Positions 2,596-24,713 of a DNA stretch of 64,000 nucleotides are shown piece by piece. The stretch is from Celeribacter sp. PS-C1 (lineage in GTDB: Bacteria; Pseudomonadota; Alphaproteobacteria; Rhodobacterales; Rhodobacteraceae): NCBI RefSeq assembly GCF_019429625.1, contig NZ_JAHXRW010000007.1, forward strand, positions 1 through 64,000, given 5' to 3'. The notes beneath the pieces were generated by a model. That model saw only the letters and a program-made list of their open reading frames with translations, did not search any database and was not told the DNA's origin. Made by a program: the position numbers and the translations under genes. Each line of letters starts with the position of its first letter. The first letter of the stretch is position 1.

Positions 2596-3332
2596 CCAGC
2601 CTGATCAAAGATCAGGGCCCGCTGATCCCGCGCAACCGCGCGATTCACCCGGCCCCCTACGACCCCGATTACAAGACCTCTGTGGCGCGCTCGCCGAACC
2701 TGCCGCTTTTGTCGATGGAAAGCTCTCCGTCGGAGGAAACCGGCCCGACCTTTGGCCATGGCAAACTCGGCGCTTTGGACAACAACCTGATCCTGAACTG
2801 GACCAAGGGCGCGGCCCCTGCCGTGGGCGAGCGCATCCTGATGCATGGCCGGGTCCTCGATGAAAACAACCGCCCCGTTCCGCACACGCTGGTGGAGATT
2901 TGGCAAGCCAACGCCGGCGGCCGCTATCGCCACAAGAAAGACACCTATTTCGCGCCGCTCGACCCGAATTTCGGCGGCTGTGGCCGGACCATCACCGATG
3001 AGAACGGCTATTACGAATTCCTGACCGTGCGTCCCGGCGCCTACCCTTGGCCGAACCGCGCCAACGACTGGCGTCCGATGCACATTCACATCTCGGTCTA
3101 CGGTCACAGCTTCGGCCAGCGCCTGATCACGCAGATGTACTTCGAGGGCGACCCGCTGATCGATCACTGCCCGATCGCCGCAACGATCAAAGACCGTAGC
3201 CAGCTCGACCGCCTTGTCGCGCCGCTCGATTTCTCGAAATCGCGTCCGCTCGATTTCCTCGCCTATAAGTTCGACATCGTGCTGCGCGGCCGCCGCCAGA
3301 CCATGTTCGAAAACAAGATGGAGGGTATGTAA
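2592..3332 (+). CDS. pcaH: Protocatechuate 3,4-dioxygenase beta subunit
   Basis: A 246-residue intradiol dioxygenase beta subunit, the chain that carries the non-haem Fe(III) site. Candidate ligands Tyr112, Tyr151, His164 and His166 have the same spacing (39, 13, 2) as Tyr408, Tyr447, His460 and His462 in the Pseudomonas enzyme; the two histidines lie in RPMHIHISVYG. With PcaG it opens the protocatechuate ring between the two hydroxyls to give 3-carboxy-cis,cis-muconate. It overlaps pcaC by 4 bp and is followed 2 bp later by pcaG, as expected for obligate partners. Confidence 0.96.
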   Translation: MTSLIKDQGPLIPRNRAIHPAPYDPDYKTSVARSPNLPLLSMESSPSEETGPTFGHGKLGALDNNLILNWTKGAAPAVGERILMHGRVLDENNRPVPHTLVEIWQANAGGRYRHKKDTYFAPLDPNFGGCGRTITDENGYYEFLTVRPGAYPWPNRANDWRPMHIHISVYGHSFGQRLITQMYFEGDPLIDHCPIAATIKDRSQLDRLVAPLDFSKSRPLDFLAYKFDIVLRGRRQTMFENKMEGM

Positions 3333-20391: not shown

Positions 20392-21612
20392 ATGTCTGAT
20401 CTTCCCATTCTCATTGCCGGTGGCGGCATCGGTGGCCTTGCTGCCGCCTGTGGTCTGGCCCGCAAAGGACACCGGTCCATCGTTGTCGAACAAGCCCCCG
20501 CCTTGGGCGAAATCGGCGCCGGCATCCAGATCGGCCCGAACGCATTCCATTGTTTCGACTATTTGGGCGTCGGCGACGAGGCCCGCGAGAAGGCGGTCTA
20601 TATCGACAAGCTGCGCCTGATGGATGCACAAACCGCCGAGGACATCACCTCTATTCCCTTGGACGAGCCGTTCCGCGAGCGCTTCAAAAACCCTTACGCC
20701 GTGGTGCACCGCGCCGACCTGCATGGTGTTTTGCTGAAGTACTGCGAAGACAGCCCGCTGGTGGATATTCGCACCTCACACGTGGTCGAAGGCTACGAAC
20801 AAGACGGCACCTCCGTGACACTCAAAGTCAAAGACCGCGATCCGATCAAGGGTTCCTTCCTGATCGGCGCCGAAGGTCTGCGTTCTGCGATCCGCGGTCA
20901 GATGATCGGCGACGGCGAGCCGCGCATCTCCGGCCACACGACCTACCGTTCCGTCATTCCCACCGAGCAAATGCCCGAAGACCTGCGCTGGAACGCGGCC
21001 ACGCTTTGGGCCGGTCCGAAATGTCACATCGTGCACTACCCGCTCAAGGGCTGGAAAGTCTTCAACCTCGTCGTGACCTATCACCGCGACGTGCAAGAGG
21101 CCATCGCAGGCCGTCCGGTCTCTAAAGAAGAGGTCGCACAAGGTTTTGAGCACATCCACCCGAAGGCCCGTCAGGTCATCGAACATGGCTCCGACTGGAA
21201 ACTCTGGGTGCTCTGCGACCGCGATCCGATTTCCAACTGGGTCGACAACCGCGTGGCGCTTTTGGGCGATGCTGCCCACCCGATGCTGCAATACTTTGCG
21301 CAAGGCGCCTGTATGGCCATGGAAGACGCCGTCGCCATGTCCCATTGCATCGAGCATTACGGCGAGAACGTCGAGCGCGCGCTGCAAATCTATCAGGAAA
21401 TGCGCAAGGTCCGCACCGCCCGCGTCCAGATGAACTCCCGCCTCATCGGCGAATACATCTACCACCCGGACGACGCCAAAGCCGCCGTGCGCAACCACGT
21501 CATGTCGAACATGACCCAAGACGAATGGTACGACCAGCTCTCCTGGCTCTATGGCTCGACCGGCCTCGATGACACGACTGTGAACGCCGCGCTGAAAACC
21601 GCCGCCGAATAA
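20392..21612 (+). CDS. 3-hydroxybenzoate 6-monooxygenase (FAD-dependent)
   Basis: A 406-residue class A flavoprotein monooxygenase: GGGIGG dinucleotide fold near residue 10, the DG-type block LIGAEGLRSAIR near 160, and GDAAHPMLQYFAQGA near 300. It resembles 3-hydroxybenzoate 6-hydroxylases that make gentisate; a salicylate 5-hydroxylase role is unlikely because those are usually multicomponent. Location directly before fumarylpyruvate hydrolase, maleylpyruvate isomerase and gentisate dioxygenase genes supports gentisate as product. Confidence 0.87.
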   Translation: MSDLPILIAGGGIGGLAAACGLARKGHRSIVVEQAPALGEIGAGIQIGPNAFHCFDYLGVGDEAREKAVYIDKLRLMDAQTAEDITSIPLDEPFRERFKNPYAVVHRADLHGVLLKYCEDSPLVDIRTSHVVEGYEQDGTSVTLKVKDRDPIKGSFLIGAEGLRSAIRGQMIGDGEPRISGHTTYRSVIPTEQMPEDLRWNAATLWAGPKCHIVHYPLKGWKVFNLVVTYHRDVQEAIAGRPVSKEEVAQGFEHIHPKARQVIEHGSDWKLWVLCDRDPISNWVDNRVALLGDAAHPMLQYFAQGACMAMEDAVAMSHCIEHYGENVERALQIYQEMRKVRTARVQMNSRLIGEYIYHPDDAKAAVRNHVMSNMTQDEWYDQLSWLYGSTGLDDTTVNAALKTAAE

Positions 21613-21647: not shown

Positions 21648-22346
21648 ATGTCCTATGTCTTCCCCCCCGCCCCGCAGGCCTCCGTGGCCGTCGACGGCAC
21701 TGACGACCGCCTGCCGGTCCGCCGCATCTTCTGCGTCGGGCGCAACTACGCCGCCCACGCCCGCGAGATGGGCAAGGACCCCGATCGCGATCCGCCCTTC
21801 TTCTTCACCAAACCGGCGGACGCCGTGGTGGACTCGGGCGAAGTGGTCGCCTACCCGCCGCAGACCGAGAATTTCCACTACGAAGCCGAGCTGATCGCCG
21901 TGATCGGCAAAGCGGGCAAGAACATCGCAGAGGAAGACAGTCTCAACCACGTTTGGGGCTATGCCGTCGGCAACGACCTGACGCGGCGCGACCTGCAACT
22001 CAAGGCCCGCGAGCAAGGCCGTCCTTGGGATTGGGGCAAGGCGTTCGACCGCTCTGCTGTTATCGGCCCGGTGTTCCCGGTTGAAAAAGTCGGCCACCCC
22101 GACAAGGGCGCGATCAAGCTGACCGTGAATGGCGAAGTCAAACAAGACGCCGATCTCGCAGAACTCATCTGGTCGGTGCCTGAGATCATTTCGATCCTGT
22201 CGCATTCCATCGCGCTTGAGCCCGGCGATCTGATCATGACCGGCACCCCCGCAGGCGTCGGGCCGATGGTTGAGGGCGACGTCTGCGTGGTCGAGATCGA
22301 AGGCCTCGGCAAGATCGAGACCCCCATCGGAAAACGCGAGGCGTAG
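21648..22346 (+). CDS. Fumarylpyruvate hydrolase (FAH family)
   Basis: A 232-residue member of the fumarylacetoacetate hydrolase family. The metal-binding acidic residues lie in FHYEAELIAVIGK (about 80-92); GYAVGNDLTRRDLQ and MTGTPAGVGPM are family signatures. It cleaves fumarylpyruvate to fumarate and pyruvate, the last step of the gentisate pathway. It is followed by the isomerase gene with a 3-bp gap. Confidence 0.9.
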   Translation: MSYVFPPAPQASVAVDGTDDRLPVRRIFCVGRNYAAHAREMGKDPDRDPPFFFTKPADAVVDSGEVVAYPPQTENFHYEAELIAVIGKAGKNIAEEDSLNHVWGYAVGNDLTRRDLQLKAREQGRPWDWGKAFDRSAVIGPVFPVEKVGHPDKGAIKLTVNGEVKQDADLAELIWSVPEIISILSHSIALEPGDLIMTGTPAGVGPMVEGDVCVVEIEGLGKIETPIGKREA

Positions 22347-22349
22347 GAC

Positions 22350-22997
22350 ATGCCTTTGAAGTTGCATAACTTCTTCCGCTCCTCCACTTCAACGCGGCTG
22401 CGTGCCGCGTTGAACCTCAAGGGGCTGGAGTATGACTATATCGCCTATGTGCTGCGCGACGGGGAAACCCGGACGCCGGAGTATCTGGTGAAGAACCCGC
22501 AAGGCCTCGTGCCAACGCTCGAGACCGAAGACGGCAGCTTTCTGACGCAATCTCTCGCCATTATGGAGTGGCTGGAGGAGACCCACCCGGAGCCCGCGCT
22601 TTTGCCCGCAGATGCCGCCGGTCGCGCCCGTGTGCGTGCGCTGTCATACATGATCGCCTGCGAGATTCACCCGCTCAACAATCTGCGCGTGCTCTTCCGC
22701 ATCCGCGATCAGTTTGGGGCCGATGAGGAAGCCCAAAAAGAGTGGTTCACCCATTGGGTCACCCTCACCTTCGACGCGCTGGAAGCAGAGCTTTCCGCCT
22801 CCGCTCAGACCGGCACCTATTGCCACGGCGACACGCCGACGATGGCCGATTGCTGCCTCTATGCGCAGGTCTGGAACAACAAACGCTTCGGCGTGCCGCT
22901 GGAGAACTGGCCGACGATTTCCCGCATCTATGCGGCACTCGACACGCTACCAGAGATGACCAAAGCGGCACCGCCCAACCAACCCGACGCCGCCTGA
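22350..22997 (+). CDS. Maleylpyruvate isomerase, glutathione-dependent (zeta-class GST)
   Basis: A 215-residue zeta-class glutathione transferase. The N-terminal motif RSSTSTRLRAALNLKG resembles the T-S-x-R-L-R form of maleylpyruvate isomerases such as NagL more than the SSCSxRVR form of maleylacetoacetate isomerases. The QSLAIMEWLEE block binds glutathione. It isomerises maleylpyruvate to fumarylpyruvate and stands between fumarylpyruvate hydrolase and gentisate dioxygenase. Confidence 0.9.
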   Translation: MPLKLHNFFRSSTSTRLRAALNLKGLEYDYIAYVLRDGETRTPEYLVKNPQGLVPTLETEDGSFLTQSLAIMEWLEETHPEPALLPADAAGRARVRALSYMIACEIHPLNNLRVLFRIRDQFGADEEAQKEWFTHWVTLTFDALEAELSASAQTGTYCHGDTPTMADCCLYAQVWNNKRFGVPLENWPTISRIYAALDTLPEMTKAAPPNQPDAA

Positions 22998-23053: not shown

Positions 23054-24157
23054 ATGCTGACCGAAGATCGCAGCCACGACACCATCGAGCACGGCATGCA
23101 GCCGGAGGACACTCCGGAACTGCGAGAACTCTATAAAGGGTTCGAAGAGAACAACCTTTTGCCGCTCTGGACCCAGCTTGGCGACCTGATGCCGATGACG
23201 CCCAAATCCAAAGCTGTGCCACATGTCTGGCGGTGGGCCGATCTTTTGCCGCTGGCGGAAAAATCCGGCGAGCTGGTGCCCGTGGGGCGTGGCGGTGAGC
23301 GTCGCGCAATTGGCCTTGCCAATCCGGGTCTCGGCGGCAATGCCTATGTGACGCCCACGCTTTGGGCCGCGATCCAGTATCTTTGTCCGGGCGAGAACGC
23401 GCCGGAGCACCGCCATTCGCAAAACGCCTTCCGTTTCGTGGTCGAGGGCGAAGGCGTCTGGACCGTTGTGAACGGCGATCCGGTGCGCATGTCGCGCGGC
23501 GATCTGTTGCTGACGCCGGGCTGGAATTTCCACGGTCACCACAATGTCGCGACGGAGCCGATGGCCTGGATCGACGGGCTGGACATTCCGTTCTCGCAAC
23601 AGATGGATGTGGGCTTTTTCGAGTTCGGGTCTGACCGAGTGACCGACAATGCGACGCCGGATTATTCGCGGGGCGAACGGCTCTGGTGCCACCCGGGTCT
23701 GCGCCCGCTGTCGCAGTTGCAAAACACTGTGTCTTCCCCGATTGGCGCTTATCGTTGGGAGTTCACCGACCGGGCGCTGACCGAACAGCTTTTGCTCGAA
23801 GACGAGGGCCAGCCCGCCACGGTTGAACAGGGCCACGCCGCGATCCGCTACGTCAATCCGACCACCGGAGGTGACGTGATGCCGACGATCCGCTGCGAGT
23901 TCCACCGCCTGCGCGCAGGTACGGAAACCGCAACGCGCAACGAAGTCGGCTCGACCGTGTTCCAAGTGTTTGAGGGCAAGGGCGCCGTGGTGCTGAATGG
24001 CGTCACCCACAAGTTGGAGAAAGGTGACATGTTCGTCGTGCCGTCTTGGGTGCCGTGGTCCTTGCAGGCCGAGACGCAGTTCGACCTGTTCCGCTTCTCG
24101 GACGCGCCGATCATGGAACGTCTGGGCTTCATGCGTCAGATGGTCGAGGGGCAATAA
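23054..24157 (+). CDS. Gentisate 1,2-dioxygenase
   Basis: A 367-residue bicupin Fe(II) dioxygenase. The N-terminal cupin carries the metal ligands His119 and His121 (PEHRHSQNAFRF) and His160 (GWNFHGHH); the C-terminal cupin (EVGSTVFQVFEGKG) lacks the HxH pair, as usual in this family. It opens gentisate to maleylpyruvate. It has a GGAGG ribosome-binding site and is followed after 1 bp by the DinB/MDMPI-like gene. Confidence 0.94.
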   Translation: MLTEDRSHDTIEHGMQPEDTPELRELYKGFEENNLLPLWTQLGDLMPMTPKSKAVPHVWRWADLLPLAEKSGELVPVGRGGERRAIGLANPGLGGNAYVTPTLWAAIQYLCPGENAPEHRHSQNAFRFVVEGEGVWTVVNGDPVRMSRGDLLLTPGWNFHGHHNVATEPMAWIDGLDIPFSQQMDVGFFEFGSDRVTDNATPDYSRGERLWCHPGLRPLSQLQNTVSSPIGAYRWEFTDRALTEQLLLEDEGQPATVEQGHAAIRYVNPTTGGDVMPTIRCEFHRLRAGTETATRNEVGSTVFQVFEGKGAVVLNGVTHKLEKGDMFVVPSWVPWSLQAETQFDLFRFSDAPIMERLGFMRQMVEGQ

Positions 24158-24158
24158 C

Positions 24159-24713
24159 ATGTCTCTCACCGAGACAGACATCGCCGCCCGCGAAGCGCTA
24201 AAGGAACGTTTGGGCAAGGGGGCGCGGTTCGACGCCCCCAACGCCCCCGCCGAAGATTTGTTGCTCGCCCGTCGCGGCACCGCCTATTTCGCTCGCAAAC
24301 TCATGGAACTCACGGATGACGACCTCTATGCGCCCTCCGCTATCGACGGCCTGAGCCGCGCGCATATCATTGTCCGCGTCAGTTACGAGGCCCGCTATCA
24401 GGCGCTGGCTTTGGAGGCTTTGGACAAGGGCGAAGTCTTGGAGTTGCCTGAAGAACTGCCCTCGCTCGATCTCGCAGCGACCCTTCCGGCCCGCGCGCTT
24501 CGGCACCTATTCCAGCATTCCGAAGTGCATCTCAACGTCTGTTGGCGCGATCTGTCCGAGGACCAATGGGATGCGGCGCTCACATTGGCCGACGGCACGC
24601 AAACGACCCCACGCGCCCTGCCCTTGATGCGCGCGCAAGGCATCTGGCAAGGTGCCCTCGATCTCGGCAATGGTGCAAGGCTCAAGGATGTGCCGAAAGC
24701 GCTCGCGCTGTGA
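24159..24713 (+). CDS. DinB/MDMPI-like protein at the end of the gentisate operon
   Basis: A 184-residue protein starting at ATG 24159, 1 bp after the dioxygenase stop. It resembles the N-terminal DinB-like four-helix domain of mycothiol-dependent maleylpyruvate isomerases. Candidate metal ligands are His69 (LSRAHIIVRV) and His120-x3-His124 (FQHSEVHLNV); actinobacterial enzymes, as I recall, use Glu at the position of His120. Gram-negative bacteria do not make mycothiol, and a glutathione-type isomerase is already encoded in this operon, so its exact job is unclear: a second isomerase, an accessory protein, or one with another thiol cofactor. Its stop abuts the convergent peroxidase stop (TGA|TCA). 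Confidence 0.72.
   Translation: MSLTETDIAAREALKERLGKGARFDAPNAPAEDLLLARRGTAYFARKLMELTDDDLYAPSAIDGLSRAHIIVRVSYEARYQALALEALDKGEVLELPEELPSLDLAATLPARALRHLFQHSEVHLNVCWRDLSEDQWDAALTLADGTQTTPRALPLMRAQGIWQGALDLGNGARLKDVPKALAL

Follow-up and report, generated by a model that had tools for sequence, protein, structure and literature searches.

A metal-less relative of mycothiol-dependent maleylpyruvate isomerase that accompanies one type of gentisate dioxygenase

Why would a gentisate operon that already encodes a maleylpyruvate isomerase end on a gene for another protein with the fold of such an enzyme? The question is raised by an open reading frame in the window (the whole stretch of 64,000 nucleotides from Celeribacter sp. 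PS-C1 that was analysed). The frame is real, encodes a protein of 184 aa and is the final same-strand gene of a 3-hydroxybenzoate/gentisate operon with the following order:

20392..21612, + strand: 3-hydroxybenzoate 6-monooxygenase (NF006021, 582 bits vs a cut-off of 459)
21648..22346, + strand: fumarylacetoacetate-hydrolase (FAH) family protein, likely a fumarylpyruvate hydrolase (profile matches)
22350..22997, + strand: MaiA-type (zeta GST) maleylpyruvate/maleylacetoacetate isomerase (TIGR01262)
23054..24157, + strand: gentisate 1,2-dioxygenase, the proposed partner gene (TIGR02272; PDB relatives 3nst/2phd)
24155..24161, + strand: junction TAA-C-ATG of dioxygenase stop and terminal gene start, with a 1-nt gap (sequence)
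24159..24713, + strand: the terminal gene, encoding an MDMPI_N-fold protein without metal ligands, 184 aa (ORF, domain, alignment and model)

The operon, the fold and the thiol background

An earlier reading of this DNA, made from the sequence alone, had placed a DinB/MDMPI-like protein in a gentisate operon that was already equipped with a glutathione-type isomerase, and the latter is borne out by the TIGR01262 match (257 bits vs a cut-off of 171); this MaiA-type protein is likely the working isomerase of the operon. The dioxygenase scores below the cut-off of TIGR02272 (282 vs 442 bits), has 3nst and 2phd, which we take to be the Pseudaminobacter salicylatoxidans gentisate dioxygenase, as its nearest PDB entries (E 4e-221), and is 85% identical to the enzyme of P. 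salicylatoxidans DSM 6986. At position 106 it carries Ala, as do 77 of 78 sequences, vs Gly in the P. salicylatoxidans enzyme; since Gly106 presumably matters for the cleavage of salicylate by that enzyme, the Celeribacter dioxygenase is probably gentisate-specific.

The predicted DinB/MDMPI-like fold of the terminal protein was confirmed. It matches the Pfam domain MDMPI_N, named after mycothiol-dependent maleylpyruvate isomerase (MDMPI), above cut-off (E 7e-7, 30.5 bits vs 24.2) and stays below the curated cut-off of NCBIfam TIGR03083, the mycothiol-dependent enzyme family (21.5 vs 50 bits). Its best PDB relative is the MDMPI of Corynebacterium glutamicum (phmmer E 2.2e-18), and the proposed comparison of a structure prediction with that enzyme gave the same answer: the AlphaFold2 model (pLDDT 93.5, pTM 0.85) has 2nsg/2nsf as best fold match (TM 0.75, Foldseek E 3.1e-10), these two being the only ones among 167 Foldseek matches with E < 0.001. 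The C-terminal domain of MDMPI is absent at a length of 184 aa and with no second domain in the domain search, vs 217-313 aa for the complete relatives that have kept the zinc-binding His/Glu/His (HEH) set. Where relatives lie on annotated plasmids, most carry the name 'maleylpyruvate isomerase N-terminal domain-containing' or 'mycothiol-dependent'.

The host does not appear to supply the thiol of the actinobacterial enzyme, in line with the sequence-only reading. The Celeribacter genome has no MshC match over the cut-off, its sole match (281 bits vs 485) being, as we read it, a CysS-like protein, and mycothiol in this host was rejected on this ground; among 14 control genomes some MshC match was found in all 14, and one over the cut-off in a single genome. 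Glutathione synthetase was found over its cut-off in the Celeribacter genome.

Loss of the zinc ligands and conservation of a second residue set

The zinc ligands of MDMPI are His52, Glu144 and His148, as given in the excerpt of PMC4351081 used here. Entry 2nsg is titled an H52A mutant and, within the aligned stretch, departs from 2nsf at chain residue 72; chain numbering therefore runs 20 ahead, which puts E144 and H148 at chain residues 164 and 168. All three ligands are lost from the terminal protein. The positions that bear on its metal site are:

24375..24377, + strand: R73 codon, column of zinc ligand H52 of C. glutamicum MDMPI (alignment)
24639..24641, + strand: G161 codon, column of zinc ligand E144 (alignment)
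24651..24653, + strand: G165 codon, column of zinc ligand H148 (alignment)
24516..24530, + strand: H120 to H124 codons, the HxxxH of the second conserved set (alignment columns)

The sequence-only reading had instead proposed His69, His120 and His124 as a metal triad, which the alignment contradicts. H69 aligns to a His four residues before C. glutamicum H52 that is not a ligand, and H120 and H124 lie, in the AlphaFold2 model, in another helix. Over 96 aligned rows, H120 is found in 96 and H124 in 95, with H69 in 72. We rejected this triad also as a replacement site, because H69 is not conserved and because H120 and H124 are conserved as well in relatives that have a normal metal site.

We collected relatives from a contig scan (the best 80 of 322, i.e. 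72 alphaproteobacterial and eight actinobacterial), from genomes of the same family and from plasmids; their start codons, and hence the gap lengths between genes, were chosen by script. Among 81 distinct alphaproteobacterial sequences the HEH set is complete in one and no ligand is left in 46. The alphaproteobacterial members, mostly of 180-200 aa, have thus lost one to three ligands with a single exception (L010/L170, genome G219), a protein of 224 aa with intact H/E/H and a MaiA gene in the same operon. Some long alphaproteobacterial proteins, two-domain by length only, have lost ligands as well (L020, L056, L081, L089, L092, L093 and L096). The actinobacterial members of the collected sets have H/E/H and 257-313 aa. 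The former ligand columns fall in the more variable part of the protein (ranks 25, 13 and 50 of 184).

Conservation is found elsewhere, outside the metal site: 25 columns, of which 23 are non-glycine positions, are invariant in 69 alphaproteobacterial rows (alignment A2), including R23, D25, R38, R46, R79, H120, H124, R130 and D131. From these rows we defined a second set (R38, F44, R46, R79, H120, H124, R130 and D131), which may form one site. It is intact in 78 of the 81 distinct alphaproteobacterial sequences, the exceptions being three divergent rows (L014, L015 and L176) broken at one or two positions; the set was picked for invariance in alphaproteobacterial rows, so that its intactness among them is in part a product of this choice and only the contrast between groups is informative. 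Likewise, H124 belongs to one of the two scan patterns, and its invariance in scanned loci is therefore partly selected, with rows from the genome-sample searches free of this effect.

The contrast is as follows. All eight residues are present in 16 of 16 actinobacterial relatives, 15 of which also have HEH; 13 of the 16 are accompanied by a dioxygenase with a measured identity of at least 72% (the contigs of L098 and L101 end before the dioxygenase, and for L017 the identity was not measured). The sixteenth relative without full HEH (L211, genome G826) has Arg for H148, is 185 aa long and apparently represents a separate decay. The nine classical MDMPIs in the comparison are that of C. glutamicum (dioxygenase not compared) and eight from genomes in which the nearest dioxygenase has 58-71% identity. 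They have kept their metal ligands (two sequences are cut off before the E and H) and carry 0-4 of the eight residues, with four in C. glutamicum. In the sequences compared, the metal site and the second set doubly dissociate between groups, the groups being also clades.

Such an Arg- and His-rich invariant set would suit dicarboxylates, and the gene adjoins that of the enzyme making the dianionic ring-fission product and is present in the 12 loci where no MaiA gene was found. The set might therefore bind this product (or its keto or enol form) and catalyse, independently of metal, a tautomerisation or product release that is separate from the isomerisation by MaiA. We regard such new chemistry as unlikely, though as the most credible of the alternatives to a partner function: to our knowledge, no gentisate pathway requires a tautomerisation or product-release step.

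Far less probable is that the protein is a decaying remnant without function that sits in the operon by chance. Its ligands and C-terminal domain have been lost, probably repeatedly on a weak tree (rough Dollo counts of ligand loss were 15, 15 and 21), some members are short (160-164 aa in L014 and L015, with script-chosen starts), and it evolves faster than the dioxygenase. Against this, of 24 usable pairs 20 give a Nei-Gojobori dN/dS of 0.07-0.24 for the gene (the other four 0.31-0.60), most of the low-value pairs being without a full metal site; 25 pairs were chosen, of which one is identical and two are actinobacterial. The dioxygenase gave values below 0.07 in 20 of 25 pairs (others 0.11-0.33, one of these with dS near 0). 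By this measure the terminal gene is under constraint, at a faster pace than its neighbour, and the 23 invariant non-glycine positions as well as the genomic association described below point the same way.

Association with one type of gentisate dioxygenase

Refutation of a role in gentisate breakdown had been tied, in the sequence-only reading, to the lack of a link with gentisate operons in other genomes; this link holds. Of 295 genomes of the same family, 16 encode the dioxygenase type (at least 72% identity) and 15 of these have a relative of the terminal protein, vs 0 of the 279 others; all 15 relatives lie on the strand of the dioxygenase and within 40 nt of it. The other full-length matches of the dioxygenase search in these genomes are at most 39% identical. 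The sixteenth genome (G176, L117/L132) has a dioxygenase of the clade (72% identity) without the partner gene, located between apparent P450 and tartrate/isocitrate dehydrogenase genes (assigned by eye), and its neighbours look unrelated to gentisate breakdown. In a class-wide sample of 385 genomes, which shares at least five with the same-family sample, three have both genes and none of the other 382 has either gene alone. The class of Georgenia (394 genomes) yielded 43 genomes with a dioxygenase match, of which 33 were searched for a relative: a member with the complete second set is present in each of the eight whose dioxygenase is at least 72% identical, and the other 25 gave five matches, all of them classical MDMPIs, and 20 without a match at E 1e-8. 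Four of these 20 were inspected, and in three of them a classical MDMPI is encoded two genes downstream of the dioxygenase. Such co-inheritance can result from nothing more than operon linkage and common descent.

The coupling is also tight at the level of the gene order. Among the best 80 of 322 scanned loci, 77 contain the dioxygenase; two of the remaining three are cut by contig ends (L098 and L101) and the third is described below. The dioxygenase is the gene immediately upstream in 71 of the 72 alphaproteobacterial loci among these 80, with gaps of -17 to +21 nt (-4 in 37 and -1 in 13 of the 71), and the start of the relative usually overlaps the dioxygenase stop codon. The gaps of -4 and -1 nt indicate translational coupling, and the preservation of this coupled start, like the presence in 15 of 16 genomes with the dioxygenase type, speaks against a chance remnant.

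Two loci deserve separate mention. In L054, from a MAG, an apparent short N-terminal remnant of the dioxygenase (about 2941-3050) lies between MaiA and the relative, by deletion or by an assembly fault. On plasmid pP73C of Celeribacter indicus (L018, 1598-9536) a cassette of FAH, MaiA, dioxygenase and terminal gene is flanked on both sides by two transposase genes, one of IS5 and one of IS110; both IS110 genes have the same protein accession, those of IS5 have different ones, and the cassette may move as a unit.

The position of MaiA is variable. In the 71 alphaproteobacterial loci with a dioxygenase it is encoded directly upstream in 41, downstream in 14 and nowhere in the locus in 12, with four outside these bins (some loci are short, and L065, one of the four, is probably an upstream case). 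The pair of dioxygenase and terminal gene is kept in every layout, e.g. in A. vitis VAR03-1 where FAH and MaiA stand apart. A search of 11 genomes with MaiA-less loci recovered a MaiA match elsewhere in six and none at E 1e-25 in five (G677, G678, G683 with only 1.9 Mb, G684 and G400), where a weaker relative is possible. Gentisate operons in genomes without a MaiA match at E 1e-25 include those of Tropicibacter naphthalenivorans (L040) and Nisaea denitrificans (L035).

These MaiA-less operons, together with the naming by homology, are what favours the protein being still a maleylpyruvate isomerase, with glutathione as its thiol or none at all and either metal-free or with a new H120/H124 site, and thus the second isomerase using another thiol that the sequence-only reading had offered as one alternative. 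We consider this improbable. The zinc ligands and the C-terminal domain are gone, each of the eight DinB/STL enzymes of B. subtilis that were tested depends on a metal according to the excerpt of PMC5815605 used here, and H120 and H124 occur just as well in relatives whose metal site is intact. HEH was found in none of the MaiA-less loci checked, and the sole alphaproteobacterial HEH protein has MaiA in its own operon; the idea that the metal site is retained where MaiA is absent was rejected accordingly. Of the two alternatives in that reading, the evidence favours the other one, by which the protein would contribute a new accessory activity to gentisate breakdown.

A retained function and its relation to known systems

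We infer that the protein does not isomerise maleylpyruvate by the mechanism of MDMPI and that the function for which it is retained involves the dioxygenase. Our main reading (a probability of roughly 55%) is that it would be a metal-less descendant of MDMPI, kept for a second function tied to the dioxygenase, most likely as a partner protein. The ancestor would have been an actinobacterial-type MDMPI encoded in one operon with a P. salicylatoxidans-type gentisate dioxygenase. In the Alphaproteobacteria, usually with a MaiA-type isomerase nearby, the metal site and mostly also the C-terminal domain would have decayed, so that the zinc-thiol mechanism of MDMPI would no longer be possible. Selection would keep a second function, seemingly common to the actinobacterial relatives beside the same dioxygenase type, that would depend on the Arg/His-rich residues outside the old metal site, and the protein would most likely act on or with the dioxygenase, as a partner or stabiliser that may bind it. 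A quick tree covered 85 of 110 rows (left out were the C. glutamicum fragment, L007 and 23 rows with close neighbours in the set); it was rooted on five classical MDMPIs, and 39 of its 82 inner branches have a support below 80. A branch with support 91 sets the alphaproteobacterial rows apart, and the long alphaproteobacterial proteins with lost ligands are among the rows nearest to the actinobacterial ones; the tree fits one transfer followed by decay and does not prove it.

More tentatively, and with somewhat less than even odds, the proposal may be widened: P. salicylatoxidans-type dioxygenases, which have been studied on their own, would have a dedicated partner in the cell, namely an isomerase that has lost its active site, the actinobacterial relatives would be bifunctional (isomerase and partner), and after transfer into glutathione-using bacteria the partner function alone would have been kept. 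Purification from E. coli has yielded the P. salicylatoxidans dioxygenase with 70-80% iron, and steady-state kinetics were measured on it (PMC11264262, in excerpt); it works in this form, so that a partner is not essential in vitro and would modulate how stable the enzyme is, how it retains iron, where it is located or how its product is handled, not enable catalysis. For a Roseobacteraceae cluster with another dioxygenase type, the table in the excerpted part of PMC11705938 gives NagK and NagL and no such protein.

Among the literature titles and abstract openings searched, there was no description of a metal-less MDMPI relative in gentisate operons; an earlier one may exist in the paper on the MDMPI structure or in that of 2004 on P. 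salicylatoxidans, both outside this scope. If the main reading is true, the MDMPI-type annotation of the relatives is misleading and a partner of a much-studied dioxygenase has been missed; the members, ranging from two-domain enzymes to metal-less single domains, would then record how an enzyme turns into a non-enzyme with its second function kept.

Comparison with known systems places the protein as follows. MaiA/NagL-type maleylpyruvate isomerase (zeta GST) is encoded in the same operon and has an unrelated fold. The DinB/STL thiol S-transferases (BstA-H of B. subtilis) have the fold in common, with 1rxq (YfiT) as a weak Foldseek match; they carry three conserved His and have metal-dependent activity (PMC5815605, same excerpt), and the terminal protein is without such a site. 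The C. glutamicum MDMPI (Cgl3021, PDB 2nsf/2nsg) shares the fold at 31% identity in the fold alignment, and the terminal protein differs from it by the missing three zinc ligands and C-terminal domain, by a host without MshC over the cut-off and by the coupling of its gene to the dioxygenase. The two-domain MDMPIs of Georgenia, Microbacterium, Naasia, Leucobacter and Rhodococcus sp. p52 have 46-49% identity to the terminal protein and all eight residues of the second set; unlike it, they have kept H/E/H, are 257-313 aa long and, where this was seen, have an FAH-family gene between them and the dioxygenase.
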